Assembly: GCA_937883885.1 (NCBI GenBank)
Contig: CAKZXL010000746.1
Span: forward strand, 1-34,075
DNA from: an uncultured Aquincola sp.
GTDB lineage: Bacteria > Pseudomonadota > Gammaproteobacteria > Burkholderiales > Burkholderiaceae
Direction of reading: 5' to 3'
Length of the DNA stretch: 34,075 nt
Positions within the stretch are counted from its first letter, which is position 1; every line of letters begins with the position of its first letter. The notes below the pieces were generated by a model, which was not told where the DNA came from, made no database searches, and saw only the letters and a program-made list of their open reading frames with translations. Made by a program: the position numbers and the translations under genes. Below, piece after piece: positions 9,965-29,933 of the stretch.

Positions 9965-9987
9965 TGCTGATTTGGGCTAACGCGCGC
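9965..9987 (+). promoter_or_regulatory. shared promoter motif, copy A (upstream of aldehyde dehydrogenase)
   Basis: TGCTGATTTGGGCTAACGC begins 82 bp before the ATG at 10047. It matches copies at 18653, 28816 (minus) and 29911. If CTAACG at 9977-9982 is the -35, CTGAAA at 10001-10006 would be a poor -10 at 18 bp spacing, as expected for an activator-dependent promoter. Confidence 0.6.
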
Positions 9988-10046
9988 TGCGGTGCCGCCA
10001 CTGAAATGCAGGCCGTGGCCGATGGCCCCCCAACCTGCGAAGCACC

Positions 10047-11474
10047 ATGCCCGACTCCTTCCAGCATTTCATCGACGGCCAGGCCGCCGAGGCCAGCGAC
10101 GGCGGCCGCCTGCCGTTGATCGACCCCGTGACCGAAGCCGAGTACGGCAGTGCCGCGCGTGGCACTGCCAGCGACGTGGACCGCGCCGTGCAGGCTGCGC
10201 ACCGGGCCCTGAAGCACGGCCCCTGGCGCCAGCTGTCGGCGCCGGCGCGTGCCCGCCTGCTGCTGCGGCTGGCCGACCTGGTCGAGCGCGACGGCGACCT
10301 GCTGGCCGACATGGACGCCCGGGCCATCGGCCGCTCACCGATGGAGCCCCGCATGATGGACGTGCCGAACGCGGTGGCCAACCTGCGCGCCGCCGCGGGC
10401 TGGGCGAATGCGCTGGAAGGCCGCACCGTGCCCACAGGCGGCTACATGGGCACCCGCACCTTCGCCTACACGGTGCGCGAACCGGTGGGCGTGGTGGGCG
10501 CCATCGTGCCCTGGAATTCGCCGCTGATGATCCTGACCTGGAAGCTGGCGGCGCTGCTGGCGGCGGGCTGCACGGTGGTGGTCAAGCCCTCGGAAGAAAC
10601 ACCGCAATCGGCGCTGCATGTGGCGCGCCTGTGCCAGGAAGCGGGCCTGCCCGACGGCGTGGTGAACGTGGTCACCGGCGTGGGCGAGGTGGTGGGCCGG
10701 GCGCTGTGTGAACACCCGCTGGTGGCCAAGATCAGCTTCACCGGCAGCCCCGAAGCCGGGCGTGAGGTGCAGCGCAGCGCCGCACCGCTGTTCAAGCACG
10801 TGGCGTTGGAACTGGGCGGCAAGAGCCCGCAGATCGTGTTCGACGACGCGCCGTTCGAAGACGCGGTGCGCGGCTGTGCGATGGGGCTCTTCGTCAACCA
10901 GGGCCAGGTGTGTGCGGCCGGCTCGCGCATCCTGGTGCAGCGCGGCGTGGCCGAGCGCTTCGTGCAGGCGCTGGCGCAGGCGGCCACGGCCGTGACGCCG
11001 GGGCCCGTGGCCAAGCGCGCGCAGATGGAGCGGGTCAACCGCTTCATCCAGTCGGGCATCGACGAAGGGGCGCGGCTGGCGGCCGGCGGCGTGTCGCAGC
11101 CGGAGCGCGGCTGGTTCGTGCGGCCCACGGTGTTTGCCGAGGCGCGCAACGACATGACCATCGCCCGCGAAGAGATCTTCGGCCCGGTGGGCACGGTGAT
11201 CCCGTTCGACACCGAGGCCGAGGCCACGGCGCTGGCCAACGACTCGCGCTACGGGCTGGCGGCCACGGTGTGGACCTCGGACCTCACCCGTGCCCATCGG
11301 CTGGCCCATGCGCTGGAAGTGGGGGCGGTGGGCATCAACTGCTGGAGCCCGCTGGACGCCAACCTGCCCTGGGGCGGCGTCAAGACCAGCGGCCTGGGCC
11401 GCGAAGGCGGCTTCGGCGGTGCGCTGGCCTACACCGAAGAGAAGGTCGTCACCCTGCTGATGCCCGACGCCTAG
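10047..11474 (+). CDS. NAD(P)-dependent aldehyde dehydrogenase
   Basis: Aldehyde dehydrogenase of 475 residues that oxidises an aldehyde to its acid with NAD(P)+. Seen: the cofactor-binding PWNSPLMI at 155-162, KPSEETP at 180-186, FTGS at 231-234, the general base Glu255 in LELGGKSPQ, the catalytic nucleophile Cys289 in GQVCAAGSR, and EEIFGPV near 372-378. It follows the divergently encoded AraC regulator and precedes the DUF1329/DUF1302/MMPL/YCF48 genes by only 61 bp, so co-transcription is likely. The usual DNGKP-type segment is replaced by ARAIGRSPMEPRM at 91-103, showing a divergent subgroup. Substrate unknown; the neighbours suggest an aldehyde derived from a hydrophobic or amine compound. 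Confidence 0.9.
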   Translation: MPDSFQHFIDGQAAEASDGGRLPLIDPVTEAEYGSAARGTASDVDRAVQAAHRALKHGPWRQLSAPARARLLLRLADLVERDGDLLADMDARAIGRSPMEPRMMDVPNAVANLRAAAGWANALEGRTVPTGGYMGTRTFAYTVREPVGVVGAIVPWNSPLMILTWKLAALLAAGCTVVVKPSEETPQSALHVARLCQEAGLPDGVVNVVTGVGEVVGRALCEHPLVAKISFTGSPEAGREVQRSAAPLFKHVALELGGKSPQIVFDDAPFEDAVRGCAMGLFVNQGQVCAAGSRILVQRGVAERFVQALAQAATAVTPGPVAKRAQMERVNRFIQSGIDEGARLAAGGVSQPERGWFVRPTVFAEARNDMTIAREEIFGPVGTVIPFDTEAEATALANDSRYGLAATVWTSDLTRAHRLAHALEVGAVGINCWSPLDANLPWGGVKTSGLGREGGFGGALAYTEEKVVTLLMPDA

Positions 11475-11535
11475 GCCCCGCCCACCACACGTTCTGCGCC
11501 TGCCTTTCATCACCCCCACTGCGGGAGCCACTGCC

Positions 11536-12924
11536 ATGAACATCTCCGTCCGCCGGGCCAGCCCCTGGCTGGCTGCATTCACCCTGGCCTGCCTGGGCGT
11601 GTGCCCGCCGGCCCAGGCCACCGACGCCAGCGCGCTGGACAAGCTCACGCCTTCGGGTGCCACGCGTGAGGCCAGCAAGGACGGCAGCATCCCCGCCTGG
11701 GAGGGCGCGGTGCCGCCCCTGCCCGGTTACGAGTGGGGCAAGCTGCGCCGCGACCACTGGAAGTACAAGGACGACAAGCCGCTGTTCACCATCGACGCCT
11801 CCAACGTCGACCAGTACGCCGACCGCCTGTCGGCCGGTCAGGTGGCCATGCTCAAGCAGCGCAAGGACTACCGCATGGACGTGTACCCGACGCGCCGCAC
11901 CTGCGGCGTGCCGGACTTCGTGGCGGCCAACACGCGCAAGAACGTGGGCACTGCGCGGCTGAGCGAAGACGGCTGGAGCCTGAAGGAAGCCACCGTGCCG
12001 GGCTACCCGTTCCCGCTGCCGGACAACGGCCTGCAAGCCATGTGGAACGCCAAGATGCGCTACCGCGGCGTGGGCATCGACTACAAGGCCACCATCACCG
12101 CCGTCTCGCCGCGCCGCGGCAGCACCGAATGGATCCGCGCCGACTCCGAGCAGACCTTGTTCATCCCCAGCGGGGCCAAGGGCAGCACCGCGCTGTCGTC
12201 GCTGCCGCCGGTGGAGTTCTTCGTGTACTTCGCGTACACGGCGCCGGCTGCGCTGGCGGGGCAGGCGCTGGCCGTCTCGCAGTTCATCAACCAGGCCGAG
12301 AACGAGACCTTCTACTACTTCCCCGGCCAGCGGCGGGTGCGGCGCATGCCCACGTATTCGCACGACTCGCCGCAGATCGGCATGGAGAACCAGTACACGC
12401 TGGACGAGCCCAACGTGTTCAACGGTGCGCTCGACCGCTTCGACTGGAAGCTGGTGGGCAAGCGCGAGATGCTGGTGCCCTACAACGCCTTTGGCGCCTA
12501 CGACTTCAAGGCGAAGTTCGAGGACGTGGCGCGGCCCGACTTCATCGCGCCCAGCCACCGCCGCTATGAGCTGCACCGGGTGTGGGTGGTGGAAGCCACC
12601 GTCAAGGCCGGCATGCGCCACTCCGCGCCCAAGCGCACCGTCTACCTGGACGAGGACAGCTGGGCGCCGGTGATGATGGACGACTTCGACGGCCAGGGAA
12701 AACTGGCCAAGCTGCGCGAAGGCTTTCCGGTGCCGGTGTTCGAGACCGGCTCCTGCGACGTGATGGCGATGGTCCAGTACAACGTGCAGGAGGGCCGCTA
12801 CGTGTTCGACACGCATGCGGTGGGCGTGGGCAAGGACGCACGCTGGGTGACCGAGCCCAATGGCCCGCGCTTCAAGCCGGGCTTCTACACCGCCGACAAC
12901 CTGCGCGCCATCAGCGAACGCTGA
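11536..12924 (+). CDS. DUF1329 family exported protein
   Basis: Protein of 462 residues with a Sec signal peptide (positive MNISVRR, hydrophobic core, probable AQA cleavage after residue 28). The mature sequence begins with the family signature LDKLTPSGATREASKDGSIPAW and has the later conserved FNGALDRFDWKLVGKREMLVPYNA type of segment, so assignment to DUF1329 (PF07044) is firm. Family members are periplasmic with a LolB-like lipid-binding fold and nearly always sit next to DUF1302 proteins. The start is supported by GGGAG about ten bases upstream. Likely role: a periplasmic carrier or partner of the DUF1302 outer-membrane protein for a hydrophobic compound. The role is inferred from family context and not proven. 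Confidence 0.88.
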   Translation: MNISVRRASPWLAAFTLACLGVCPPAQATDASALDKLTPSGATREASKDGSIPAWEGAVPPLPGYEWGKLRRDHWKYKDDKPLFTIDASNVDQYADRLSAGQVAMLKQRKDYRMDVYPTRRTCGVPDFVAANTRKNVGTARLSEDGWSLKEATVPGYPFPLPDNGLQAMWNAKMRYRGVGIDYKATITAVSPRRGSTEWIRADSEQTLFIPSGAKGSTALSSLPPVEFFVYFAYTAPAALAGQALAVSQFINQAENETFYYFPGQRRVRRMPTYSHDSPQIGMENQYTLDEPNVFNGALDRFDWKLVGKREMLVPYNAFGAYDFKAKFEDVARPDFIAPSHRRYELHRVWVVEATVKAGMRHSAPKRTVYLDEDSWAPVMMDDFDGQGKLAKLREGFPVPVFETGSCDVMAMVQYNVQEGRYVFDTHAVGVGKDARWVTEPNGPRFKPGFYTADNLRAISER

Positions 12925-12951
12925 TCGCCGCCCGCCCGCAAGGAACGCCCC

Positions 12952-14598
12952 ATGCGCGACATCTCCACCCCTGTGCGCTGCAGCGTGGCTGCAGCCGCCG
13001 TGCTCGCCTGCACGCCCGCTGCCCAGGCCTTCCGCTTCGAGGCGGGGGGCATCCAGGGCAACTTCGATTCCACGCTGACCGTGGGCACCGGCATCCGCGT
13101 GAAGGACCGCGACTGCACCCTCATCGTGCAGGGCGCCAGCGGCAGCGGCGCGCCGGCCGGCTGCCTGGCGGCCACCTCCGCGCTGGGCGACCAGGGCGAC
13201 CTGAACTACGCCCGCGGCGATGCCTTCACCACCTACCTCAAGGGCAACCACGAGCTGCTGCTCAAGCTGCCCGGCGAGGTCACGGCCCTGGGCCGCGTGA
13301 ATTGGGTGCGCGACTTCACCGCCACCGACACCACCGGCCAGCTCAGCGCCACCAGCCCGCCGCTCAGCGACGGCCTGGCCGGCGATGCGCGGCGCGACCT
13401 GCGCTTCAAGGCCCGGGTGCTCGACCTGTGGGTGAGCAAGACCTTCAGCGTGGGCGAGCAGCAGCTGCGCGTGCGCGCCGGCAACCAGGTCATCAGCTGG
13501 GGCGAAAGCCTGTTCCTGCCAGGCGGCATCAACGCCACCAATGCGGTGGACGTGATGCGTCTGTCGCAGCCCGGCACCCAGCTGAAGGAGGCGGTGCTGC
13601 CGGCGCCCATCGTCAGCGTGGCCTCGGGCCTGGGCGAGGGCTTGAACATGGAGGCGTATGTGCAGGCGCACTGGAATGCCAACTACCTGCCGCCCACCGG
13701 CAGCTACTGGTCCACCGCCAACGGCATGGGCAAGGGCCATGCGGCCTACGGCCTGGTGGACGGCAAGGCCTCCAACGGCGGGCAATGGGGCCTGGCGCTG
13801 AAGTACCAGCCCAAGGGCACGCAGCTCAACCTGGGTGCCTATGCGCTCAACTACCACGACAAGGCGCCCAACTTCAGCGTGAACGCGGGCGGCGCCGGCG
13901 TGCCCGGCTGGGCCTATGCGGAAAACCGGCGTCTCTACGGGCTGAGCGCCAACCTGCCCGTGGGCGACTGGGCGCTGGGCACCGAGCTGTCCTACCGGCC
14001 GCGCGACGCGGTCTCGCTCAACTCGGCCACCACGGGCTGTGCCTCGCAAGGCGGCAACTGCTGGGTCGACGAGAAGAAGCTGCAGTGGCACCTCACCGGC
14101 CTGCTGAGCCTGTCGCCCAGCACCGGCGGTGGCCTGCTGCGGCTGCTGGGCGCCGACACCGCCACCTTCATGGCCGAAGCGGTGGTGGTGCGCTACCCGA
14201 AGCTCAAGCGCTTTTATGGCGACGACCCGATCTCGGCCGGGGCCTGGGGCTGGGGCAAGGAATTCGACCCCGCTGCGCCAGCACAGCCGGTGGGCAGCAA
14301 GACCACCTGGGCCTACAACTTCGACTTCAGCTGGGTGTACGACGGCACGCTGATCGAAGGCTGGCAGGTGGTGCCCGAGGTGTACTACTTCCAGGTGGTC
14401 AAGGGCCGCACGCCCAACGGGGCGGGGCAGTTGATGGAGGGTGCCAAGTCGGTCAACCTGACGGTGAGCTTCATCCAGAACCCGGCGAACTGGCAGGCCG
14501 CGATCAACTACGCCGCCTTCTTCGGCGGCAGGACGGTGTTCGACCAGCCGCTGCGCGACCGCAACTTCGTCGGCCTCACGCTGTCGCGCAACTTCTGA
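12952..14598 (+). CDS. DUF1302 family outer-membrane beta-barrel protein
   Basis: Protein of 548 residues with a signal peptide (probable AQA cleavage after residue 26) and the DUF1302 (PF06980) opening FRFEAGGIQGNFDSTLTVG. Alternating hydrophobic strands and a terminal phenylalanine in LSRNF fit an outer-membrane beta-barrel recognised by the Bam machinery. The conserved NQVISWGESLFLPGGIN segment is present. The start follows an AAGGA ribosome site and the gene lies 27 bp after the DUF1329 gene. In this family the protein is thought to be a porin-like component for hydrophobic compounds; with DUF1329, the MMPL protein and the YCF48 propeller it would span the envelope. Direction of transport cannot be told from sequence. 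Confidence 0.87.
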   Translation: MRDISTPVRCSVAAAAVLACTPAAQAFRFEAGGIQGNFDSTLTVGTGIRVKDRDCTLIVQGASGSGAPAGCLAATSALGDQGDLNYARGDAFTTYLKGNHELLLKLPGEVTALGRVNWVRDFTATDTTGQLSATSPPLSDGLAGDARRDLRFKARVLDLWVSKTFSVGEQQLRVRAGNQVISWGESLFLPGGINATNAVDVMRLSQPGTQLKEAVLPAPIVSVASGLGEGLNMEAYVQAHWNANYLPPTGSYWSTANGMGKGHAAYGLVDGKASNGGQWGLALKYQPKGTQLNLGAYALNYHDKAPNFSVNAGGAGVPGWAYAENRRLYGLSANLPVGDWALGTELSYRPRDAVSLNSATTGCASQGGNCWVDEKKLQWHLTGLLSLSPSTGGGLLRLLGADTATFMAEAVVVRYPKLKRFYGDDPISAGAWGWGKEFDPAAPAQPVGSKTTWAYNFDFSWVYDGTLIEGWQVVPEVYYFQVVKGRTPNGAGQLMEGAKSVNLTVSFIQNPANWQAAINYAAFFGGRTVFDQPLRDRNFVGLTLSRNF

Positions 14599-14605
14599 GG
14601 CCGCC

Positions 14606-16952
14606 ATGTTGCGCATCGAGCACTTCGTGTTCCGCCACCGCGGCCCGCTGCTGGCGGTGCTGCTGGCCTTCACGGCCGTGATGGGCTGGTTCGCCCTGCA
14701 ACTGCGCATGGACGCCGGCTTCGACAAGCAGATGCCGGTGGGGCACGAGTACATCGACACCTTCCGCACCTACCGCGACGACGTGCTGGGTGCCAACCGG
14801 CTGACGGTGGTGGTGCGTGCGCGCAGCGGCTCGATCTGGACCCCCGCCGCGCTCAAGCGCCTGTATGAGGTGACGCAGGCGGTGAGCTACCTGCCCAATG
14901 TCGAGCGCCTGGGCGTTCAGTCGCTGTGGACGCCCAACAGCTTCGTCAACGAGATCACCGAAGAAGGCTTTCGCGCCGATCCGCTGATCGACGGCACCAC
15001 CACACCCGAGGCCCTGCAGTCCGACACCCATCGCCGCCATCCGCAGCGCCACGCGGCAAGGCGGCTACGTGGGCACGCTGGTGTCGCGCGACGAAACCAG
15101 TGCCATGGTCACGGCCGAGCTGATCGAGGTGGGCGCCGATGGCGCGAAGCTGGATTACGTGGCCTTCAACCACCTGCTGGAGCAGCAGATCCGCAGCCGC
15201 TTCGAGGACGCCGACTTCGAGATCCAGATCATCGGCTTTGCCAAGCAGATCGGCGACATTGCCGACGGCGCGCAGTCGGTGCTGCGCTTTTGCGCGGTGG
15301 CTCTGGTGCTCACCGCGCTGGCGGTGTACTGGTACTGCCACTCGCTGCGTTTCACGCTGCTGCCCATCGTGTGCTCGCTCACCTCGCTGGTGTGGCAGTT
15401 CGGCACACTCAGGCTGCTGGGCTTCGGGCTCGACCCGCTGGGCGTGCTGGTGCCGTTCCTGGTGTTTGCCATCGGCGTGAGCCACGGGCTGCAGCAGATC
15501 AACTACATCGTGCGACAGATCGCAGCCGGGCACGACAACTTCACGGCCTGCCGGCAGAGTTTCTCGGGGCTGCTGATTCCCGGCACGCTGGCGCTGGTCA
15601 CCGCGCTGGTGTCCTTCATCACCTTGCTGCTGGTGCCCATTCCGATGGTGCGCGAGCTGGCCATCGCCGCATCTCTGGGCGTGGCCTACAAGATCGTCAC
15701 CAACCTGGTGATGCTGCCGGTGGTGGCCTCGTACTTCCGGGTGGACAAGGCCTTTGCCGAACGGGCCGTGCTCAAGCGCGAGCAGCGCTCGGGCTGGCTG
15801 CGGCAGCTGGCACGGGTGGCGCAGGGCCGTCATGCGGTGGTGGTGGTGCTGCTGTCGGCCGGCGTTTTCGGCCTCGCGGTCTGGCAGAGCCGCGACCGCG
15901 TGGTGGGCACGCTGCAGCCCGGCGCGCCCGAGCTGCGGGAGGACGCGCGCTTCAACCGCGACGCGGTGGCCATTGCCGGCAGCTACGACACCGGCCTGGA
16001 CTGGCTCACCGTGGTGTTCGAAGCGCCGCCCGACAGCTGCGACAAGGTGAACCTGGCGCTGGCGCAGGACCGCTTCGTGTGGGCAATGGAGCCGGTCGAG
16101 GGCGTGCTGTCGGTGTCTTCGTATGCCGGCCAGCTGCGGCTCTACAACGAGGGCTACAACGAAGGCCAGCCCAAGATGAACGTGGTGCCGCTGGATGCCG
16201 GCAACGTGGCGGCGCTGTCCACCGAGATCGCGCGCATCCGCGGGATGATGCGCAAGGACTGCAGCATGACGGCGGTGCACCTCTTCCTCACCGACCACCA
16301 GGCCACCACCATCCGGCGGGTGGTGGATGCCGTCAAGCAATTCAGGCAGCAGCAGGCGCTGCCCGGTGTGAACATCCGGCTGGCTTCGGGCAATGCCGGC
16401 GTGCTGGCCGCCATCGACGAAGAAGTGGAGCGCAGCGAACTGCCGATGATGCTGTACGTGTACGCCTGCATCGTGCTGCTGGTGCTGCTGGTCTACCGCG
16501 ACCTGCGGGCGGTGGTGGCCTGCTGCCTGCCGCTGACCATCGCCACCTTCATCGGCTACTGGTTCATGAAGGAGCTGCAGATCGGCCTGACCGTGGCCAC
16601 GCTGCCGGTGATGGTGCTGGCGGTGGGCATCGGCGTCGACTACGCCTTCTACATCTACAACCGGCTGCTGATGCACATGGCCGAGGGCCAGCCGATCGAG
16701 CAGGCCATCGAGCAATCGCTGCTGGAGGTGGGCATGGCCACCATCTTCACCGCCATCACGCTGGCGGTGGGCGTGGCCACCTGGTCGTTCTCCGACCTCA
16801 AGTTCCAGGCCGACATGGGCAAGCTGCTGGCCTTCATGTTCATGGTGAACATGGTGATGGCGATGACCACGTTGCCGGCCGTGGCCGTGGTGCTGGAACG
16901 CCTGTTTCCGCGCCGCCAGCCCGTGCGTGCCACCCGCCTGCAACACCACTGA
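14606..16952 (+). pseudogene. MMPL/RND-family transporter, split by a one-base frameshift
   Basis: The gene starts at ATG 14606 and encodes an RND/MMPL transporter: one N-terminal membrane helix (about 12-31), a periplasmic domain, and then two blocks of membrane helices separated by a second periplasmic domain. After about 140 codons the similarity jumps to the next frame. The C run at 15027-15029 has one base too many: with two Cs the reading continues as SDTIAAIRSATRQGGYVGTL and stays open to the TGA at 16950-16952. Corrected length would be 781 residues, normal for this family. As written the gene is disrupted, either by a real mutation or by a sequencing error in a short C run. No slippery heptamer was seen. 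It lies between the DUF1302 and YCF48 genes. Confidence 0.8.
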
Positions 16953-17965: not shown

Positions 17966-17999
17966 GCCTGCGGCGGCGGCCTCATGCGTCTACCATCGC

Positions 18000-18020
18000 G
18001 CCCCGTTTCGACGGGGCTTT
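18000..18020 (+). terminator. likely terminator after the envelope cluster
   Basis: GCCCCGT (18000-18006) and ACGGGGC (18011-18017) pair around a TTCG tetraloop, followed by TTT and then CCC. The U tract is short, so termination may be partial. It lies 34 bp after the YCF48 stop codon and before the cytochrome b561 start. Confidence 0.5.
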
Positions 18021-18045
18021 CCCGTTCTCCAGCTTCTTGATCGCC

Positions 18046-18624
18046 GTGAAAAATCCTGGCTCCGTCCTTCCTTCCTCCACCGCTGGCCAGCGCTACGCCG
18101 GCAGCTTGCGCGCCGTTCACTGGCTGCGTGCGCTGGTGGTGCTCGGCACCCTGTCCGCGGGCCTGTTGATGGTGAATCTGCCCGACGACATGGCCGTCAA
18201 GTTCGAGCAGCTCTATCCCAACCACAAGCAGTTCGGCGTGCTGGCGCTGCTGCTGGTGCTGCTGCAGCTGGTGCTGCGCTGGCGCCGCGGCGTGCCGGCG
18301 CTGCCGCACAGCCTGCAACCTTGGGAACGCCGGCTGTCGCACCTCACCCATGGCCTGATGTACCTGCTGCTGGTGCTGGTGCCCTTGATGGGCTACGCCA
18401 TGTCCAGCAGCTTCACGCAAAGCGACGGCGTGCCGTTCTTCTTCTTCGGCCACCTGCCCGAGCTGCTGCCCAAAAACGACGCGCGCTTCGAGGTGTTCCA
18501 GCTGCTGCACCGCTACCTGGCGTGGACGCTGCTGGCGCTGGTGGTCATGCACGTGGCCGGCGCGCTCAAGCACCGCTTCTTCGACGCCGACCCCGACAGC
18601 GACGTGCTGCGCCGCATGCTTTGA
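18046..18624 (+). CDS. cytochrome b561 (CybB-type, di-haem membrane protein)
   Basis: Membrane protein of 192 residues with four predicted helices and the histidines expected to bind two b-type haems: His25 in LRAVHW, a histidine in YPNHKQFG, those in LSHLTHGLMY, and the C-terminal pair in LLHRYL and VVMHVAGALKH. Bacterial CybB proteins move electrons from the quinone pool, and the E. coli protein has been linked to superoxide oxidation. The start is taken as the GTG at 18046; no ATG suits the family N terminus and longer readings run through the hairpin at 18000-18017. It could be a passenger gene or supply electrons to neighbouring redox enzymes; the latter is speculation. Confidence 0.85.
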   Translation: MKNPGSVLPSSTAGQRYAGSLRAVHWLRALVVLGTLSAGLLMVNLPDDMAVKFEQLYPNHKQFGVLALLLVLLQLVLRWRRGVPALPHSLQPWERRLSHLTHGLMYLLLVLVPLMGYAMSSSFTQSDGVPFFFFGHLPELLPKNDARFEVFQLLHRYLAWTLLALVVMHVAGALKHRFFDADPDSDVLRRML

Positions 18625-21602: not shown

Positions 21603-21607
21603 GGGCT

Positions 21608-23248
21608 TCAGGCCGCGAGGCGTTGCTCGGGCGCTTGCAGGTCGGTGAAGGCCGCGAACTGCCGGGTCACCTCGGGCAGGTCGGCCGGGCTGCAGTGGGC
21701 GGCGATGTAGCGGTCGGGGCGCAGCACCAGCAGCCGGCCGCCAGGGTGCGCATCCATCCAGTCGGACAGCTGGTTGTCCACGTCCTCCACGCACACGGTG
21801 CCGTGGGCGGAAGCCATGCGGGCGCCTGGCTGGTCGCCGCAGCGGGCGCGGTCCACCCGCACGAAGCGGGCGCCCAGCTGCTGCCAAAAGGCCAGTTGGT
21901 CGGGGGGCAGCGCGTCTTGCGGGTCGGTCTGCCAGCCCACCAGCGCGAACCAGGGGCCCAGCGCTTCGTCCAGCTTCACCCGCTGGCCATCCGCGTCTTC
22001 CACGTCGGGCTGTATCAGCATGCGGCCCACCATGGGGGAGCCGGGGCTGCGCACCACCACGCCCTGCTCGTAACGCGGCATCGGCTTGAAGCGCATCTGC
22101 AGCACGTAGTGGCGCAGGCCGGGCAGCCAGCGCGCCGCACTGAAGAAGCGGTCGCGCAGCCAGGCCTTGAGGCGGTTGCGCGGCATCAGCATGGCGCCGA
22201 ACAGGTCGGCCAGGTCGATCATGGCCTGTGCATGGCGGTGCCGCTCGTCGTGGTAGCTGGCCAGCACCGAGGGCTTCAACCGGCCTTGCACGATGCCGGC
22301 CAGCTTCCATCCCAGGTTGCCCGCATCGCGCAGGCCGGCGTTCAGGCCCTGGCCGATCCACGGCGGCGACAGGTGGGCCGCATCGCCGATCAGCGCCACG
22401 CGGCCGACCACGAAGCGGTCGGCCACGCGTGAATGGTGGGTGTAGGTGCGGGCACGCACGATCTCCACCGCTGCCGGATCAAGGACATAGGGCGCCAGCA
22501 GCCGCCGCACCGAAGCGGGCTCGGCGATGGCCTGCTCGTCTTCATGCGGAAAGACCATGAACTCCCAGCGGCGGTAACCATAGGGCAGGTAGATGCAGAC
22601 GTTGGGCCGCCGCGGGTCGCAGTTGAGCGCGGTGTAGGGCGCATCCAGCGGGGCATTGCGCACGTCCACCACCAGCCATTTGATGGCATGGGTGCGGCCC
22701 AGCAGCTGGGCGCCCACCCAGTCGCGCATCGGGCTGCGGCCACCATCGGCGCCCACGCAGTAGTCGCAGGCCAGGGTGTAGGCTTGGCCCTGGGCATCGC
22801 GCACCTGCAGCCGCACGCCGTGGTCGTCCTGGGTCAGGCCCAGCACCTCTTCACCCAGGCGCAATTCCACCTGCGGGTAGCGCTGCAGGCCCCGGCGCAG
22901 CGTCTTCTCGGCGATCTGCTGCATGAAGATGTTGCGGCGCCACCAGCCGTATTCGCGGGTGGAAGCGCGGATGTCGGCAAAGCAACGGCCATCGGCGCGG
23001 AACATGCGCAGCGGCACATTGGGAATCATGTCGCGCAGCAGTGGCTCGGCCAGCTGAACGGACTGGAAGAGGCGCAGCGCTTCGTCGTCCATGCCGACCG
23101 CGCGCGGGTATTCCAGGATCTGGCGCTCACGCTCGATGACCACGGTGCGCACGCCCTGCGCACCCAGCAGGTTGGCCAGCGCGATGCCGTTGGGCCCGCC
23201 GCCGACGATGACGACCGGTACACGCTGAAGCGGTGGTTGGGCGCTCAT
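21608..23248 (-). CDS. FAD-dependent aromatic hydroxylase (MhpA-like)
   Basis: Class A flavoprotein monooxygenase of 546 residues, close in length to MhpA, which hydroxylates 3-(3-hydroxyphenyl)propionate with NADH and oxygen. Seen: the FAD-binding Rossmann motif VIVGGGPNG at 13-21, the DG motif in GADGGRSPM at 166-174, the second FAD contact [18 protein letters not shown] at 288-305, and a C-terminal thioredoxin-like domain ending in [13 protein letters not shown]. The start codon overlaps the stop of the upstream hydrolase gene (ATGA). No ring-cleavage dioxygenase of the MhpB type is in the operon, although a VOC-fold protein is encoded, so the pathway is not simple phenylpropionate breakdown. 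An aromatic or heteroaromatic substrate is likely. Confidence 0.87.
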
Positions 23249-24123
23249 GGCAGGCGCCGCGGCCGGGCGGCCACGTCCAGGTCGGCCAGGAAGGCGTGCA
23301 GCGGCGCCTCGAAGCCGGGCAGGTTGTCGTCGTGCACGTAGTGGCTGGCATCGGCCACCTCGGCGAGGCGGATGCAGGGGTTGCGCTGCGCCATGGCCTG
23401 TGCGGTGTCGCGTGCCAGGAAGTCGGAGCAGGCACCGCGCAACAGCAGCGTGGGCACGGTCAAGGCGTCCACATGCGGCCACAGGTCCACCAGCTGCTGC
23501 GGCGTGGCCGCCAACCGTGCGGCAGCGATGCCGGCGGCATCGTGGCGCCAGACCACGCTGCCGTCGGCATCGGCCTTCATCGAATGGCGCACGCGGGCCG
23601 ACAAGGCGGCCTCGGACACCCCGGGCCGTTGCGCACGCCAGAAGGCTTGCGCCTCGGCCCAGCCCGCAAAGCGGTCGGGCGTGGCCTGCAGCTCACGGCG
23701 GATGCGTTCGGCCCCGGCCGAGGAGGCCGAGGCGCCGGGGCCCATGTCCTCGATGACCAGGCCGTGCAGGCGCTGTGGGTTGGCTGCCGCATGGACGAAG
23801 GCGGTGGCACCGCCCATCGAGTGGCCCAGCAGGATGAAGCGGTCGAGCCGAAGCTCATCGACCAGGGCCTGCAGGTCGCGCAGGTAATGCTCGGTGAAGT
23901 AGCGGCGCTGCGGGTCCCAGTCGCTGTGGCCGCGACCGCGCTGGTCCAGCGCGATGAAGCGGTAGCGGTCGGCCAGCGGCAGCGCCACCGGCTCCCAGGT
24001 ATGGGCAAAGCTGCGCAGGCCGTGCAGCGCCACGATGGCGGGCGCGGCGATGTCGCCCCATTCCACGCAGCGCAGGTTCAGGCCTTCGCTGCGGATCCAG
24101 GTTTCACGCACGTGGGTGCTCAT
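23245..24123 (-). CDS. alpha/beta hydrolase
   Basis: Hydrolase of 292 residues with triad Ser102 in GHSMGG, Asp234 in RGACSDFL and His261 in ADASHYVHD; the oxyanion HG is at 34-35. In aromatic degradation operons such proteins cleave ring-opened C-C bonds (the MhpC type) or hydrolyse lactones and esters; the position directly before an MhpA-like hydroxylase, with coupled start and stop codons, supports a role in the same pathway. The ATG at 24123 starts the conserved region; a longer frame to 24189 runs into the preceding gene. It resembles the hydrolase at 598-1467 in general layout but shares little detailed sequence. Confidence 0.88.
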   Translation of the reverse strand: MSTHVRETWIRSEGLNLRCVEWGDIAAPAIVALHGLRSFAHTWEPVALPLADRYRFIALDQRGRGHSDWDPQRRYFTEHYLRDLQALVDELRLDRFILLGHSMGGATAFVHAAANPQRLHGLVIEDMGPGASASSAGAERIRRELQATPDRFAGWAEAQAFWRAQRPGVSEAALSARVRHSMKADADGSVVWRHDAAGIAAARLAATPQQLVDLWPHVDALTVPTLLLRGACSDFLARDTAQAMAQRNPCIRLAEVADASHYVHDDNLPGFEAPLHAFLADLDVAARPRRLP

Positions 24124-24142
24124 GGTCGGGCGGGCGCTGGCT

Positions 24143-24748
24143 TCACACCAGGCCGTCTTGGCCCTTGACGTCGCGCGCCTGCAGCCCACCCAGCCGGGCG
24201 TTCAGGCGGCCACGGGTGGCAAAGGCCCAGACGATCAGCAGCTCGTCGCGGTTGGGCGCGTCGTTGAACATCACGCTGATCGAGTCGTAGTGCGAGCGCA
24301 CGTACAGCGCGTCCTTGTGGGCCAGCGGCACGTCGAGCACGGTGCCGGGCCCGCCGCGCTTGCCGGTGGAAGGCACCCACGACTTGCCACCGCCCACGCC
24401 GTCGCGCACGGGGTTGGCGGCAGGGTTGGTGAGCAGGGCATTGCCGTGTTCGTACTCGCCGTCGATGCCCACCAGGCAGGCCTTGCCGTAGCTCTCTACG
24501 GCCTGGCCGGCGGCCGCTTCGCGGATGCGGCGGCCGAACTCGGCGCCCAGCAGCGGTGAAGGCGCGATGAAGGGCGAGAGATCGGCCTCATAGCGGCCGG
24601 CATAGGGGTTGTGGATCGCGGCGGCGATGACGATCTTGCGCAAGGGCGCGCCGTCGGCGGGCTGGCCGGTTTCGCCGGCCAGGGTGTCCTCGATCTGGAG
24701 GTACCACTTGCGGATGTGGTAGCCGTGGAAGTTGGGGGCCTGGTTCAT
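24143..24748 (-). CDS. amino acid synthesis family protein (PF06684)
   Basis: Protein of 201 residues of the PF06684 family (formerly DUF1185), recognised by RKIVIAAAIHNPYAGRYEAD and the following DLSPFIAPSPLLGAEFGRR, a GIDGEYEHGNALLTNPA segment and a DALYVRSHYDS segment. Structures from this family have a chorismate-mutase-like fold, and a role in amino acid metabolism has been suggested, but no reaction is established. It lies between the VOC gene (25 bp upstream) and the alpha/beta hydrolase (19 bp downstream). It may act on a ring-opened or amide-bearing intermediate; that is inference. Confidence 0.8.
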   Translation of the reverse strand: MNQAPNFHGYHIRKWYLQIEDTLAGETGQPADGAPLRKIVIAAAIHNPYAGRYEADLSPFIAPSPLLGAEFGRRIREAAAGQAVESYGKACLVGIDGEYEHGNALLTNPAANPVRDGVGGGKSWVPSTGKRGGPGTVLDVPLAHKDALYVRSHYDSISVMFNDAPNRDELLIVWAFATRGRLNARLGGLQARDVKGQDGLV

Positions 24749-24773
24749 GGCTTGCTCGCAGTGCGTCGGTCGG

Positions 24774-25277
24774 TCAGTCGAAAAGCGGCTGCAGCTCGAT
24801 GGGGTCGCTGGCCGCGTTGTATTGCGTCATCAGGCGCTTGCCTTCGGCGTCGTCGTGCTCGCGTTCGCAGAAGAACTCGAGCCGGTTGCCGTCGGGGTCG
24901 TTGAAGTACACGCCGATGCCGGCCTTGTGGTCGGTGATCTTCACGATGGGCACGCCGCGGCGCAGCAGCATCCCGTACAGGCGCCGCAGTTCGTCCAGGT
25001 CGCCGGCGATCTCCAGCCCGTAGTGCTGCAGGCCGATGGTGCCCAGCTCCGCCGGCGTCTGCGCCTTGATGAGGGCGATGTCATGGTGCTTCTGGCCGAA
25101 GGACATGAAGGTCCAGCGCGGCTCGCTGGCCACCTGCTCCATGCCCAGCACCTCGGCGTACCAGCGGCCGGAAGTCACCGGGTCGCGCACGTACAAGGCC
25201 ACATGGGTGCGTTGCACGCGCGGCACCGGCAGGCGCTGGCCGGGTTGCAGCGGCGGAATGTCGGGTCGTGTGGTCAT
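24774..25277 (-). CDS. VOC-family protein (glyoxalase / extradiol dioxygenase fold)
   Basis: Protein of 167 residues with the vicinal-oxygen-chelate fold. The strand RTHVALYVRDPVTSGRWYAEVLGM opens the domain with a metal-ligand histidine in THVAL, a second histidine is in LQHYGLEI, and a glutamate in NRLEFFCE could be the third ligand. Other features: YFNDPDGNRLEF near the end, typical of extradiol dioxygenase-like and glyoxalase proteins. One domain copy only, so it may be a dimer. It could be a ring-cleavage enzyme, isomerase or lyase; the presence of the full metal triad keeps a dioxygenase possible. Four bases separate it from the upstream propeller gene. Confidence 0.82.
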   Translation of the reverse strand: MTTRPDIPPLQPGQRLPVPRVQRTHVALYVRDPVTSGRWYAEVLGMEQVASEPRWTFMSFGQKHHDIALIKAQTPAELGTIGLQHYGLEIAGDLDELRRLYGMLLRRGVPIVKITDHKAGIGVYFNDPDGNRLEFFCEREHDDAEGKRLMTQYNAASDPIELQPLFD

Positions 25278-25281
25278 GGGC

Positions 25282-26319
25282 TCAGTCGGTGGATTGCGCC
25301 TGGGCCACCAGCGGCGCCTTCACCGGCGTCCAGGCCACCGCGGTGATCTCGGGGAACGACCGCCATTCCTTGTGCCAGCTGCGGCCGCCGTCGGTGGAGC
25401 GAAAGAGGTCGCCGTACTTGGTGCCGGCATACAGCCGCGTGGGGTCCGCGCCGTGGCCGCCCAGCGCCCAGAAGGTGGAGTTGGGCGGCGTCTCCAGCTG
25501 CATCTCGGTCCAGTGGAAGCCGCGGTCGCTGGAGCGGTAGAGCCTCGTCTTGAGCCCGGGCGTGCCGTCGCCGATGGCCATCAGCAGCTCGTCGTCGCTG
25601 CCCGGCAGCGGCATCACCGTGCGGGTGTAGTACAGGCCGTCGAAGCGCTGCTTCGACAGCTGCCCATCCCAGGTCTGGCCATCGTCCTGGCTCACGTACA
25701 CCGCATTGACCGTGAGCACGATGAAGGTGCGCGGCGCGCTGGCCGTGGCCGGCAGGATGGAGATGGCATGGATGTCGGAGCTGCGGATGGCCTTGCGCGG
25801 ATCGTCCAGCCGCTCGAAGTGCTGGCCGCCGTCGCGGCTGCGCCAGGCACCGCCTTCTTCCACGCCGAACCACACGTCCTGCCCGTCGTCGGGGTTCACG
25901 CAGATGGTGAGCATGCGCGGGCGGTTGACGCCCTGGCAGAACTCGTCCATCTCCGGCGGCAGGCGGTGCCAGGTCTCGCCGCGGTCGGTGGATTGGAAGA
26001 GGGCCGCGCGCGAGGGCGCGCCGGTGCCGGCATACATCACCTCCGGCTGGCTGGGATCGATGCCGATCGACCAGACCGTCATGCCGCGGATGGCGCCTTC
26101 GGCCAGGCGCCAGTGGGCACCGCCGTCGTCGCTGATGCACAGGCCTGCATCGGCACCGGCATACACGCGGTCCGGCCGCTCGGGGTCGACGGCCAGGGCG
26201 CGCACCACGCCGTCGAACTCGATGGCCTCCTTCAGGCCCAGCCGGTGCCAGGTGCGGCCGTCGTCGTTGCTGCGCAGGATGCCCTGGCCGGCAGTGGCCA
26301 CCATGATCGTGAAGTTCAT
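25282..26319 (-). CDS. cytoplasmic Asp-box (BNR-repeat) beta-propeller protein
   Basis: Protein of 345 residues with seven Asp-box repeats (SxDxGxxW) at about 17, 63, 110, 161, 210, 263 and 308, for example SNDDGRTW, STDRGETW, SQDDGQTW and STDGGRSW. The regular spacing of about 45-55 residues predicts a propeller of roughly seven blades. No signal peptide is visible: the N terminus MNFTIMVATAGQGILRS is already the first strand. Such proteins are often labelled exo-sialidase or glycosyl hydrolase, but the FRIP motif and catalytic residues of sialidases are not seen, so enzymatic activity is not supported. It probably serves as a scaffold or unrecognised enzyme in the operon. The ATG at 26319 is 14 bp after the SDR stop. 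Confidence 0.82.
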   Translation of the reverse strand: MNFTIMVATAGQGILRSNDDGRTWHRLGLKEAIEFDGVVRALAVDPERPDRVYAGADAGLCISDDGGAHWRLAEGAIRGMTVWSIGIDPSQPEVMYAGTGAPSRAALFQSTDRGETWHRLPPEMDEFCQGVNRPRMLTICVNPDDGQDVWFGVEEGGAWRSRDGGQHFERLDDPRKAIRSSDIHAISILPATASAPRTFIVLTVNAVYVSQDDGQTWDGQLSKQRFDGLYYTRTVMPLPGSDDELLMAIGDGTPGLKTRLYRSSDRGFHWTEMQLETPPNSTFWALGGHGADPTRLYAGTKYGDLFRSTDGGRSWHKEWRSFPEITAVAWTPVKAPLVAQAQSTD

Positions 26320-26333
26320 CGCTCGTGCCTCGC

Positions 26334-27143
26334 TCAGAGGAAGATGCCGCGCGTCAGGCCGCCGTCGCAGCCCAGCGATTCGCCGGTGATGGAGCCCGAG
26401 CGGGGCGAAGCCAGGAAGGCGATGATCCAGCCCATTTCCTCGGGCTGCAGCACGCGGCGGATGGGCGTGGCCTTGACGTAGTTGGACTCCACGGCCGCGG
26501 CGGTCAGGCCCTGCTTCTGCGCTTCCTTCTCGTACAGCTCGTGGATGTGGGGCGTTTCCACCACGCCGGGGTGGATGGTGTTGACGGTGATGCCGTCGGG
26601 GCCCAGCTGGTCCGACAGCGTCTTGGTCATGTGCACGATGGCCACGTTGCGCATGCCCGAGAGCTGCTTGCTGCCCCGACCGGTGAGCCCGCCGATGTTG
26701 ACGATGCGGCCATAGCCGCGGCGGCGCATGTAGGGCGCCACCGCCTTGGCACAGCGGAAGTAGCCCACCACCTTGATGTCGATGTCCTGCAGCAGGCCTT
26801 GCGGATCGGCCTCCGCCAGCTCGCTGCGCACCAGGCCGCCGGGGTGGGCCGCGCCGTTGACCAGGATGTCGATGCCGCCGAAGGCTTCGGCCGTGGCGGC
26901 CATCGCGGCTTCGATGGTCGTCATGTCGGTGGTGTCCACCACCACCGGCAGCACGCGGCCGGCACCGGGCTGCGTGGCCAGCATTTGGCGCAGCTCGGCG
27001 GCGGCTTCTTCGAGGTGGTGGAGGCGGCGCGCCGCGATGGCCACGTCCACGCCTTCGCGTGCCAGTTCCAGCGCCGCTGCCTTGCCGATGCCCATGCTGC
27101 CGCCGGTGATGAAGGCGACCTTGCCCTTGAGTTGAAGATCCAT
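26334..27143 (-). CDS. SDR-family protein with atypical active site
   Basis: Short-chain dehydrogenase/reductase of 269 residues with an intact cofactor motif TGGSMGIG at 13-20, an NGAA motif at 96-99 and a C-terminal GESLGCDGGLTRG. The catalytic part is unusual: where a Ser and a YxxxK motif are expected, the sequence is NIGGLTGRGSKQLSGMRNVA (149-168), without the Tyr or a Lys in the correct spacing. It therefore may bind NAD(P) without classic hydride transfer, or use other residues. Second gene of the operon, 24 bp after the ThDP enzyme. The family is certain, the reaction is not. Confidence 0.87.
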   Translation of the reverse strand: MDLQLKGKVAFITGGSMGIGKAAALELAREGVDVAIAARRLHHLEEAAAELRQMLATQPGAGRVLPVVVDTTDMTTIEAAMAATAEAFGGIDILVNGAAHPGGLVRSELAEADPQGLLQDIDIKVVGYFRCAKAVAPYMRRRGYGRIVNIGGLTGRGSKQLSGMRNVAIVHMTKTLSDQLGPDGITVNTIHPGVVETPHIHELYEKEAQKQGLTAAAVESNYVKATPIRRVLQPEEMGWIIAFLASPRSGSITGESLGCDGGLTRGIFL

Positions 27144-27167
27144 GGTGTTGTCCTGGTGAGTGAGGGG

Positions 27168-28739
27168 TCAGGCCAGCCGCATCTCGATCAGCACGGGGCC
27201 TTCGGTATGAGCCTGGGCGTGCGCCAGCGCCCGCTGCAGTTCTTCGGTGGTGGTGGCGGTGTGCGCCGGCACGCCATAGCCGCGCGCCAGTGCCAACCAG
27301 TCGAAGGGCGGGTCGTCCAGCAGCGTCAGCCGCTTCGATTGCTCGCCCGCTTCGATGCCGGAGCGGCCCAGTTCGGTCTGCAAGATGCCGTAGCGGCGGT
27401 TGGAGGTGATGAGCACCACCACGGGCAGCCGTTCGCGGGCCATGGTCCACAGCGACTGGATGGTGTATTGCGCGCTGCCGTCGGACTGCAGCGCATACAC
27501 GCGCCGGTCGGGGCAGGCCACCGCCGCCCCCAGCGCCACCGGCAGGCCCTGGCCGATGGCGCCGCCGGTGTTGGTGAGCACCGTGTGCCGCGCGGCCTGG
27601 GCCGAGGCGGTGACGAAGGGGTAGCCGCAGGTGCCGCCCTCCACCGAGACGATGGCCTGGTCGGGCAGGGCGTTGGACAGCAGCCGGCCCACCGCCACCG
27701 GCGTCAGCGGGCCGGCCTGCACCGGCCACTGCTGCGGCGCCACGCCGGGCACCACGCGCGGCGCCTGCAGCAGCTCGGCCAGCTGTTCCAGCGCCAGGTC
27801 GGCCGGCTCGCCGGGGGCGGCCAGCAGCTGCAGCCGGTCTTCAGGCGCCAGCCGGCTGGGCAGGCCCTCATAGCCGAAATACGCCACCGGTGCGATGGCG
27901 CCGGCCAGCACCACCTGGGCGCCGTCCAGCGCCTGGATCGCGGCCTCGGGGAAGTAGGGCAGGCGGTCGATGTCGGGCAGGGCGCCGCCGCGCTCGGTGC
28001 GCGCCGGGAAGGTCTCGGCGTACAGACGCGCGCCGGTGGCTGCGGCAATGCGGCCGGCGGCCACCTGCCCGCGCGCGCTCAACGCCCGGTCGCCCAGCAG
28101 CAGCACGGTGGGCGTGCCGGCGTGCAGCACGCGGGCCACCGCTTCCACACGCGCGGCATCCACCACCGGCGCGGCCGGGCGGGGCTGCGTGGGCGCCCGC
28201 TGCTCGGGTGCCGGCAGCTGCTGGAAGTCGACCGGCACCACCAGCGTGGCCACGCAGCCCGGGCTGGCCGCGGCGGCGCGCAGGCCATCGACCGCGTCGG
28301 CCTGCAGGGCCTGCGGCTGCGCGATGGCGCGGTACCAGCCCGACACCGGGCGCGCCAGCGATGCGATGTCCGAGGTCAACGGCGCGTCGTAGGCCAGGTG
28401 CCAGCTGGCATGGTCGCCCACCAGGTTGAGGATGGGTGAACGCGCCCGCCGCGCGTTGTGCAGGTTGGCCAGCCCATTGGCCAGGCCGGGGCCCAGGTGC
28501 AGCAGCGTGGTGGCCGGCCGGCCGCTCATGCGGGCGTAGCCATCGGCGGCGCCGGTGCACACGCCCTCGAACAGGCCCAGCACCGCACGCAACTGCGGCA
28601 GCAGGTCGAGGGCGCCCACCAGCGGCATTTCGGTGGTGCCCGGGTTGGCGAAGCACACCTCGGCACCTCCAGCCGCCAGCGCCTGCAGCAGGCGGAAGGC
28701 ACCGGAGCGCGGGGCGTCGGACAGGGTTGGTTCGTTCAT
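27168..28739 (-). CDS. ThDP-dependent enzyme (acetolactate synthase large subunit / benzoylformate decarboxylase-like)
   Basis: Thiamine-diphosphate enzyme of 523 residues with PYR, central and PP domains. Seen: catalytic Glu58 in LGLFEGVCTGAADGYARM, which activates the cofactor, and the diphosphate/metal motif at 419-447. In that motif the usual GDG is SDG (Ser419, Asp420, Gly421), followed after 25 residues by Asn447 in ITSNRRYGIL. The ThDP-binding Asp and Asn are therefore kept while the first Gly is changed. Length and layout suit 2-oxo acid decarboxylases and carboligases; a true acetolactate synthase role is unlikely because no small subunit follows. First gene of the eight-gene operon; the start overlaps a region with an inverted repeat that could block the ribosome site. 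Confidence 0.87.
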   Translation of the reverse strand: MNEPTLSDAPRSGAFRLLQALAAGGAEVCFANPGTTEMPLVGALDLLPQLRAVLGLFEGVCTGAADGYARMSGRPATTLLHLGPGLANGLANLHNARRARSPILNLVGDHASWHLAYDAPLTSDIASLARPVSGWYRAIAQPQALQADAVDGLRAAAASPGCVATLVVPVDFQQLPAPEQRAPTQPRPAAPVVDAARVEAVARVLHAGTPTVLLLGDRALSARGQVAAGRIAAATGARLYAETFPARTERGGALPDIDRLPYFPEAAIQALDGAQVVLAGAIAPVAYFGYEGLPSRLAPEDRLQLLAAPGEPADLALEQLAELLQAPRVVPGVAPQQWPVQAGPLTPVAVGRLLSNALPDQAIVSVEGGTCGYPFVTASAQAARHTVLTNTGGAIGQGLPVALGAAVACPDRRVYALQSDGSAQYTIQSLWTMARERLPVVVLITSNRRYGILQTELGRSGIEAGEQSKRLTLLDDPPFDWLALARGYGVPAHTATTTEELQRALAHAQAHTEGPVLIEMRLA

Positions 28740-28746
28740 TCATGCA

Positions 28747-28761
28747 TCCCAAAATACGGGA
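28747..28761. promoter_or_regulatory. 15-bp inverted repeat, copy 1 at the eight-gene operon start
   Basis: TCCCAAAATACGGGA has TCCC/GGGA arms around seven bases. It ends seven bases before the ThDP enzyme start codon and covers the only GGGA that could act as its ribosome site. Its reverse complement TCCCGTATTTTGGGA resembles the araC-upstream copy at 9879. Confidence 0.6.
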
Positions 28762-28771
28762 ATGATGGTAG

Positions 28772-28793: not shown

Positions 28794-28816
28794 AGGGGTG
28801 CTAACCCATATCGGCA
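28794..28816 (-). promoter_or_regulatory. shared promoter motif, copy D (eight-gene operon)
   Basis: Read on the minus strand, TGCCGATATGGGTTAGCAC begins 77 bp before the ThDP enzyme start codon. It matches copy B (29911) at 14 of 19 positions, including the full TGCCGAT. Orientation and distance agree with the other three copies. Confidence 0.55.
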
Positions 28817-28850: not shown

Positions 28851-28897
28851 TGCAGGCCGTTGTGTGAGAACGTCGTTGCAAGGAAGGGAGCCACTCG

Positions 28898-29890
28898 ATG
28901 CGCAAGCGCAAGACTCTTCGGGCCCTGGCGGGCCTGGCCGTGGGAGCCGCAGCCTGGCTGGGTGCCGGGCCGGCGGCCTGGGCACAGGGCGGTGAATGGC
29001 CGCAACGGCCGGTGCGGCTGGTGGTGCCGTACCCGCCGGGCACCGGGCCGGACATCATGGCCAGGCTGGTGTCCGAGAAGCTGGGCAAGGACCTGAAGGC
29101 CACCTTCGTCATCGACAACAAGCCCGGCGTCAACGGCAGCCTGGGCACCGAATCGGTGGTGCGGGCGCCGGCCGATGGCTACACCCTGCTGCTGGTGGAC
29201 CGGTTGACGCTGTCCACCAACCCGCTGCTCTACAGGCTGAGCTACGACCCGCGCAAGGACCTGGCTTCGGTGAGCAACATCGCCGACGTGAGCCTGTACC
29301 TGGTGGTCTCGGCCGCGCTGCCGGTCACCGACTTCCGCGGCTTCGTTGAGCACCTCAAGGCCAACCCCGGCAAGGTGACCTTCGGCAGCGGCGGCGTGGG
29401 CAGCATCTCCCACCTGAACATGGTGCTGCTGCAGGACGGCACCGGCACCCAGATGCTGCATGTGCCGTACAAGGCCTTCGCGGAGGTGATTCCGGCGATG
29501 CTGGCCGGCGACATCGCCGCCTCCTCGGGCGGGGTGGAAGCGCTGCAGCAGCATGTGGCCCAGGGCAAGCTGCGGTTGCTGGCGGTGGGCGCGCCCCAGC
29601 GCACGCCGGCCGCGCCGGCGGTGCCCACCATCCAGGAAGCGGCGGGCGCGGACTTGCTGATCTCGACCTCGTATTCGCTGCATGCGCGCTCCGGCACGCC
29701 GCCCGAGGTGCTGGCCCGGCTGCAGGCCGCGCTGCGGCGGGTGATGGCCGACCCGGAGGTGCAGGAGTCCGCGGCGCGCCGCGGACTGCGCGCCTACGCC
29801 ACCACGCCGCAGGAGCTGGACGCGGTGATCGCCGCCGATGCCGCCCGCGTGGGCCGGTTGATCCGCGAGCACCACATCAAGGTGGAGTAG
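28898..29890 (+). CDS. Bug/TctC-family periplasmic substrate-binding protein
   Basis: Periplasmic receptor of 330 residues with a signal peptide (MRKRK start, AWA cleavage after about residue 29) and the family hallmarks WPQRPVRLVVPYPPGTGPDIMAR, IDNKPGVNGSLGTE and VPYKAFAEVIPAMLAGDI. Bug proteins bind small carboxylates, aromatic acids or amides for tripartite tricarboxylate transporters; many, as here, are orphans with no TctA/TctB genes beside them. The ATG is preceded by AGGAAGGGAG. It is divergent from the eight-gene operon with 158 bp between start codons, so receptor and pathway are probably co-regulated. Confidence 0.92.
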   Translation: MRKRKTLRALAGLAVGAAAWLGAGPAAWAQGGEWPQRPVRLVVPYPPGTGPDIMARLVSEKLGKDLKATFVIDNKPGVNGSLGTESVVRAPADGYTLLLVDRLTLSTNPLLYRLSYDPRKDLASVSNIADVSLYLVVSAALPVTDFRGFVEHLKANPGKVTFGSGGVGSISHLNMVLLQDGTGTQMLHVPYKAFAEVIPAMLAGDIAASSGGVEALQQHVAQGKLRLLAVGAPQRTPAAPAVPTIQEAAGADLLISTSYSLHARSGTPPEVLARLQAALRRVMADPEVQESAARRGLRAYATTPQELDAVIAADAARVGRLIREHHIKVE

Positions 29891-29910
29891 GGCGGCCGGC
29901 CCGCGCAAGC

Positions 29911-29933
29911 TGCCGATCTGGGCTGACGCGGGC
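29911..29933 (+). promoter_or_regulatory. shared promoter motif, copy B (upstream of APC permease)
   Basis: TGCCGATCTGGGCTGACGC starts 75 bp before the ATG at 29986 and just after the receptor stop. CTGACG (29923-29928) and TAGAGT (29947-29952) could be -35 and -10 elements at 18 bp spacing, so the permease probably has its own promoter. Confidence 0.6.

Follow-up and report, generated by a model that had tools for sequence, protein, structure and literature searches.

The window analysed here is a 34,075-nucleotide stretch (positions 1 to 34,075) of contig CAKZXL010000746.1 from an uncultured Aquincola sp. of the Burkholderiales. It encodes an AraC-family regulator (8891-9859, minus strand; gene referred to as araC), an adjoining IclR-family regulator (8143-8877, plus strand) and four dispersed transcription units, each preceded by a copy of one short motif. 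Site 1 (9965-9983, plus strand) lies 5' of a unit for an aldehyde dehydrogenase (ALDH1), a DUF1329 protein and a DUF1302 protein; site 2 (18653-18671, plus) lies 5' of a class III aminotransferase (AT2), site 3 (28798-28816, minus) 5' of an eight-gene operon headed by a thiamine pyrophosphate (TPP) enzyme, and site 4 (29911-29929, plus) 5' of an APC permease. Very probably, these four sites are bound by the EutR-like AraC protein or a close paralogue, which would activate an amine-catabolic regulon. We infer binding and activation from the site itself, its conservation, its rarity in the genomes of relatives, its co-occurrence with araC, its targets and the promoter geometry, all of which are observed.

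The first unit encodes, on the plus strand, ALDH1 (10047-11474; the best NCBIfam model is StyD phenylacetaldehyde dehydrogenase, below the cut-off), and the DUF1329 (11536-12924) and DUF1302 (12952-14598) proteins (both by Pfam). Further along the plus strand are genes for an RND/MMPL-type transporter (14603-16949), a BNR/Ycf48-like protein (17033-17917, by homology) and a cytochrome b561 (open reading frame (ORF) 17833-18624). AT2 (18745-20115) and the APC permease (29986-31422) are also on the plus strand. The operon (20148-28739, minus strand) encodes the TPP enzyme (27168-28739), an SDR protein (26334-27143), a BNR protein (25282-26319), a glyoxalase-fold protein (24774-25277), a DUF1185/AA_synth protein (24143-24748), an alpha/beta hydrolase (23245-24123), an MhpA-like FAD hydroxylase (21608-23248) and an SSADH-like aldehyde dehydrogenase (ALDH2, 20148-21602). 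This layout is real, with gaps of 24, 14, 4, 25, 19, -4 and 2 bp (the last assumes an ALDH2 start at 21605; the listed ATG candidate is 21602).

A first-pass annotation of this DNA, made from the sequence alone, had reported the four sites, placed them 75-92 bp from start codons and named the genes behind them. All of this holds. The pattern TGCCGATNTGGGCTAACGC, allowing up to three mismatches, has exactly four matches in the whole window, at these positions, compared with a mean of 0.06 in 100 shuffles, none of which reaches four. From motif start to start codon the distances are 82 bp (ALDH1, 10047), 92 bp (AT2, 18745), 77 bp (TPP enzyme, 28739) and 75 bp (APC permease, 29986), and the genes downstream are those that had been named.

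The same four sites are recovered with a weight matrix from relatives. A search for homologues of the AraC protein found 482, with 120 listed; 31 were aligned, and a scan of genome contigs gave at least 78 distinct araC loci in Burkholderiales and Pseudomonas (figures refer to the matches listed). In 63 of the 78 listed loci, the 450 bp 5' of araC contain a site with up to four mismatches. The matrix was built from the 20 distinct sequences among these 63, leaving the window out. It ranks the window's sites first (30.9 for site 1, 23.1 for site 2, 19.1 for site 4 and 15.4 for site 3); the next best match, at 14442 inside the DUF1302 gene, scores 7.8. In simulated first-order sequence, scores of at least 14 arise 0.1 times per 34 kb. 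The training sites were picked with the consensus of the first-pass annotation, so that the matrix is free of the window's own sequence but still depends on the motif hypothesis.

The 15-mer core of the motif, TGCY-N6-GGMTA, is asymmetric and lies, by sequence and position, at the -35 region. Each site comprises one half-site plus about three bases (an 18-mer) and ends at the expected -35 box. Weak -10 elements about 18 bp further on had been claimed for three of the sites, and such hexamers are present as TGAAAT 19 nt after the 18-mer (site 1), CACCAT at 18 nt (site 2) and TAGAGT at 18 nt (site 4); site 3 lacks a clear -10 at the usual distance and has TACCAT at 28 nt. Because the -10 hexamers at three sites are poor, the promoters probably need an activator. 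For deduplicated relatives, we searched each target group separately for the best -10-like hexamer 10-29 nt after the 18-mer. It falls at offset 19 in 42/46 APC, 43/51 AT2, 14/21 ALDH1 (the other seven at 18) and 7/10 DUF1329 promoters, and three Herbaspirillum TPP promoters have TATATT at 18.

The accessible text of three sources gives the half-site of XylS, BenR and CphR as TGCA-N6-GGNTA (PMC6449761, PMC6205950, PMC4514859); for AntR, no such half-site was detected, according to the accessible part of PMC1360089. To the extent that these systems are described there, the sites resemble theirs in the form TGCN-N6-GGNTA ending at the -35 region, and the proteins in the AraC-type helix-turn-helix (HTH) domain. 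The half-site ends about 22 nt before the -10; the CphR proximal repeat (-49 to -35) has the same spacing, assuming that the -10 there starts at -12. They differ in that XylS and CphR are described in those texts with two tandem repeats, 21 bp and 20 bp apart, respectively, and none is found here: at -21 there is no second (XylS-type) half-site, with a mean of 2.09 of 7 core letters versus 1.82 in shuffled sequence and at least five core letters at 2.9% versus 1.3% of sites (n = 137). A further difference is that the targets look amine-catabolic, and no ring dioxygenase subunit occurs among the window proteins scanned. In the mechanism that we propose, the AraC protein with its effector would bind the single half-site abutting the -35 and recruit polymerase to promoters with poor -10 elements.

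Rarity and co-occurrence were measured in genomes of relatives with the pattern TGCYGATNYGGGMTAMCG (perfect or with at most one mismatch), using the pattern backwards as control. Fifteen araC-positive genomes, chosen from the 78 loci, contain 45 matches at up to one mismatch (4 for the control), of which 33 share a contig with araC and lie no more than 25 kb from it, with some araC positions taken from contig ranges of the locus scan. In these relatives, the motif is thus rare, not frequent regardless of function. Two Herbaspirillum genomes (G013, G014) have no match near araC at up to one mismatch. Perfect sites track with araC, as the first-pass annotation had anticipated. Among 100 genomes from the genus of G009 (Variovorax), araC is present in 10 (E ≤1e-60; four at 42-44% identity), and a perfect site occurs in 7/10 araC-positive versus 0/90 araC-negative genomes (Fisher p 7e-9); in the remaining three positives, a one-mismatch site lies no more than 100 bp from araC. 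Among 149 genomes from the genus of G008 (Pseudomonas), araC is present in 19 (three only at 38-41% identity), and the perfect site in 14/19 positives versus 2/130 negatives (G255 and G305; Fisher p 8e-14; one match for the backwards control). Sixteen Pseudomonas genomes have an orthologue of at least 52% identity, and in 12 of these the perfect site is no more than 170 bp from araC; in G379, site and araC homologue are on different contigs. As the genomes are related, both p values overstate independence. The 120 genomes of the Roseateles family include a single araC-positive one, G002, which has a perfect site, as do G044, G048 and G050, which are araC-negative at E 1e-60, a result against strict co-occurrence. 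The one-mismatch pattern was rejected as a presence test in this family, being too noisy (42/120 genomes, one of them araC-positive; 57 matches versus 23 for the control).

The motif is also conserved in relatives before orthologues of the same target genes. We surveyed the targets of sites scoring at least 15 in the window and 79 loci, 202 sites in total with the window's own four, taking the first suitable ORF downstream. It resembles AT2 in 56 cases (five being transaminases of only 29-32% identity), APC in 51, ALDH1 in 23, DUF1329 in 12 and TPP in 4; there is another ORF in 42 cases and none in 14. In relatives, a site precedes an AT2 orthologue (at least 80% identity) at 50 places, APC permeases likewise at 50 (two APC genes being present in some loci), ALDH1 orthologues in 22 loci, and the TPP gene in Herbaspirillum (L059-L061) and Roseateles G002. 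A site of this score before an AT2, APC, ALDH1, DUF1329 or TPP relative is found in 67/79 loci. The close relative G002 has sites at all four units (ALDH1 30.9, AT2 25.2, TPP 17.8, and APC 11.5, a weak site one base longer); G001 scores are 30.9 for ALDH1, 26.7 for AT2 and 15.9 for APC. In most Pseudomonas loci AT2, ALDH1 and cytochrome b561 are behind one site, and in Burkholderiales ALDH1 and AT2 mostly have a site each.

Seven downstream ORFs, six of them from the 42 others, were scanned with Pfam. These encode a chemoreceptor (L014), flavin amine oxidases (L019 and L061) and a protein with a weak match to an alginate-export-type barrel (L015), while those of L016 and L034 have no Pfam match; the remaining ORF, from L006, encodes a class III aminotransferase that differs in type from AT2. 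The amine oxidase of Variovorax L019 comes on top of AT2, which that locus also has; the stretch examined of Herbaspirillum L061 showed no AT2. For the deamination step, some relatives thus have a different class III transaminase, or a flavin amine oxidase, behind such a site. The Pseudomonas L014 chemoreceptor (MCP, 12848-14899) is divergent from a second APC permease, and each has its own motif, about 60-75 bp apart. Since the chemoreceptor is behind its own motif, chemotaxis may belong to the regulon. Chemoreceptor-like ORFs occur in other Pseudomonas loci too, with the Pfam identity taken from L014 only.

We also observed, near 10976-11005 in five Burkholderia loci (L066, L067, L072, L075, L078), a homologous araC-APC-ALDH-transaminase cluster (AraC 39-43%) with the variant TGCCGATWRCGGACAACGC between araC and APC instead of the motif. 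The annotated plasmid record of Variovorax PDNC026 has no gene annotation in the region.

The 8891-9859 protein has a C-terminal AraC-type double HTH domain (HTH_18, 70.7 bits, E 1.3e-19; HTH_AraC, 37.8 bits; both above cut-offs). It resembles the NCBIfam EutR model over its full length (131.7 bits, residues 7-316), and several homologues are named EutR in a source, but the score is far below the curated cut-off of 319. The AndR (anthranilate) model matches only the C-terminal part (63.5 bits; cut-off 350). No EutB/EutC-type gene was found among the window proteins scanned with Pfam, which are part of the ORFs. Literature searches found no publication on this regulon, which is weak evidence of absence given thin coverage of subscription journals.

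Several results weigh against the regulon as we read it. Site 3 is weak and its -10 not clear, its G001 counterpart scores 10.1, and no score-15 site precedes the Pseudomonas TPP operons in the loci set, although G002 does have a site at the place equivalent to site 3. Twelve of the 79 loci have no site of that score (ten Burkholderia with AraC at 39-43%, Janthinobacterium L062 at 50% and Pandoraea L064 at 54%), many loci are congeners, and the distal half-site is absent, unlike in XylS. Perfect sites occur without a close araC in the two Pseudomonas and three Roseateles-family genomes named above, and the noisy one-mismatch pattern is found in 41/119 (Roseateles family) and 48/90 (Variovorax group) araC-negative genomes. 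Finally, AraC homologues of about 39-44% identity in Variovorax and Pseudomonas have such sites too, so several paralogues may read the motif, and 3/19 Pseudomonas and 4/10 Variovorax positives depend only on these.

The same kind of site beside these more distant paralogues implies that the motif belongs to a subfamily. The strongest rival explanation, which we consider unlikely, takes this further: the promoters would be read by a paralogue elsewhere or by several, and the regulon would not be exclusive to this araC gene. It draws on four Variovorax-group genomes with AraC homologues of 42-44% and a like site within about 100 bp of the gene, on Pseudomonas G331 (40%) and loci L068 and L076 (39-40%) with a like site within about 150 bp, and on several Pseudomonas genomes with two or three AraC homologues. 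Arguing against it, the closer AraC orthologue is accompanied by these target genes and their sites across several genera. The proposal of the first-pass annotation that the AraC protein at 8891-9859 unites these units is thus borne out with regard to the rare site, co-occurrence with araC and shared targets. It needs qualifying for the subfamily motif, for the perfect copies in genomes lacking a close araC and for the TPP operon, which probably has a second regulator as well.

That the neighbouring IclR protein, and not AraC, binds the motif is highly improbable. The IclR gene does adjoin araC in the window and lies beside the TPP operon in G001, G002 (70-72% identical in both) and several Pseudomonas loci. 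However, at E 1e-15 over half the length, many loci with sites have no IclR relative within the stretch examined. The motif is, moreover, asymmetric and spaced as in AraC/XylS sites, as far as the accessible sources describe these, and a separate palindrome before araC and TPP is a better candidate for the IclR operator. Chance similarity of GC-rich promoter stretches, which would account for the one-mismatch matches in araC-negative genomes, can be practically dismissed given the shuffle expectation, the fixed -10 distance, the matrix from relatives and the co-occurrence of perfect sites.

The palindrome, ATCCC-N7-GGGAT, has three matches in the window at up to one mismatch (shuffle mean 0.59; 1/100 shuffles reaches three). 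The first, ATCCCGTTTTGCGGGAT (9878-9894, perfect), is just upstream of the araC start, the second, ATCCCAAAATACGGGAA (28746-28762), is between site 3 and the TPP start, and the third falls within the gene for ALDH2 (20233). On the araC side, G002 and L003 have a perfect counterpart in the same position, and G001 and G006 have one with a single mismatch, the centres being different; no palindrome is found 5' of araC in L004 and L005. On the TPP side, it is perfect in G001 and GTCCC-N7-GGGAC in G002. Copies also occur without such context (four in 46.5 kb of G001, one each in G002, G006, L003 and L004), so single copies mean little. The palindromes before araC and the TPP operon suggest a second control layer, in which an IclR protein, probably the neighbouring one, would act on both. 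Among the window proteins scanned, no DNA-binding regulator other than this IclR protein and AraC was seen.

Combining the two layers, we tentatively propose, as a possibility somewhat short of probable, a network for an undescribed aromatic amine. The IclR protein would set araC and the TPP/hydroxylase operon via ATCCC-N7-GGGAT, and AraC, through an unpaired XylS-type half-site, would drive permease, deaminase, aldehyde dehydrogenase, envelope exporter and, in Pseudomonas, chemoreceptor, with the deaminating enzyme exchanged or added between lineages while the site is kept. In the main reading given at the outset, the EutR-like member of the AraC/XylS family is predicted to sense the substrate before activating the four promoters. 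The route would proceed by uptake (APC), deamination (AT2) and aldehyde oxidation (ALDH1), followed by the TPP/hydroxylase operon.

We assign the programme to amine catabolism because an APC permease, transaminases, a flavin amine oxidase and aldehyde dehydrogenase are behind one kind of site. Its aromatic character is suggested by the MhpA-like hydroxylase (NCBIfam NF004831, above cut-off) and by the coupling of DUF1302/DUF1329/RND/BNR operons with aromatic regulons that the accessible text of PMC6449761 describes. The substrate is probably an aryl or aryl-alkyl amine. Only broad classes, from which no substrate follows, emerge from sequence comparison with NCBIfam and PDB: AT2 is of the GABA-transaminase/racemase type, the TPP enzyme is benzoylformate decarboxylase/acetolactate synthase-like, the second-best match of the alpha/beta hydrolase is alpha-(N-acetylaminomethylene)succinic acid hydrolase, and ALDH1, the FAD hydroxylase and the amine oxidase are likewise placed broadly. 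A beta-hydroxyphenethylamine route and a pyridine-ring route were weighed, and neither has decisive support.

Two known systems resemble parts of this gene set. One is that of AphS, AphR and AphT, the first two being regulators of classes other than the AraC type. In the accessible text of PMC6449761, these control DUF1302-PF07044-COG1033-COG4447 operons in Betaproteobacteria, and the window shares with them DUF1302, DUF1329 (PF07044), an RND exporter, BNR and the coupling to an aromatic pathway; it differs in that its set is behind an AraC-type site and includes ALDH1, whereas AphT is LysR-type. The other comprises the hcd (7-hydroxycoumarin) and trigonelline (tgn) clusters, in which, in the available part of PMC7913881, a DUF1185/BCM-like protein (HcdD, TgnF) lies beside catabolic oxidoreductases, as in the window operon. 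The resemblance does not, as far as shown, extend to pathway chemistry, and the hcdE-type alcohol dehydrogenase, cupin and FMN reductase of that text were not seen in the operon.

Three other features of the window were recorded. The reading frame of the RND/MMPL-type transporter gene changes near 15006-15016: the first frame runs to about 15016 and the second begins at about 15006, with 75% and 80% identity, respectively, to the protein of L004, which we read as a frameshift, either natural or a sequencing error. A DUF6351 tannase-like protein (31406 or 31577 to 33775) is encoded directly 3' of the APC permease, perhaps in the same operon; it has no match in the 78 listed loci (E 1e-15, half its length). 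On the minus strand, 4884-7611 holds adjacent genes for a glutamine-synthetase-like enzyme and a class III transaminase (PRK07046), and the motif is absent there.

If the four promoters form one regulon, genes of obscure role (DUF1329, DUF1302, DUF1185, BNR, RND and the MhpA-like hydroxylase) would be joined in a single pathway that can be tested and for which a regulator and a promoter sequence are proposed. A promoter reporter could be used to screen amines for the inducer, and hence the substrate. The sites are a candidate case of activation from a single half-site in a family usually described with paired sites, and the programme is found in Roseateles, Variovorax, Hydrogenophaga, Acidovorax-type bacteria, Herbaspirillum and Pseudomonas.

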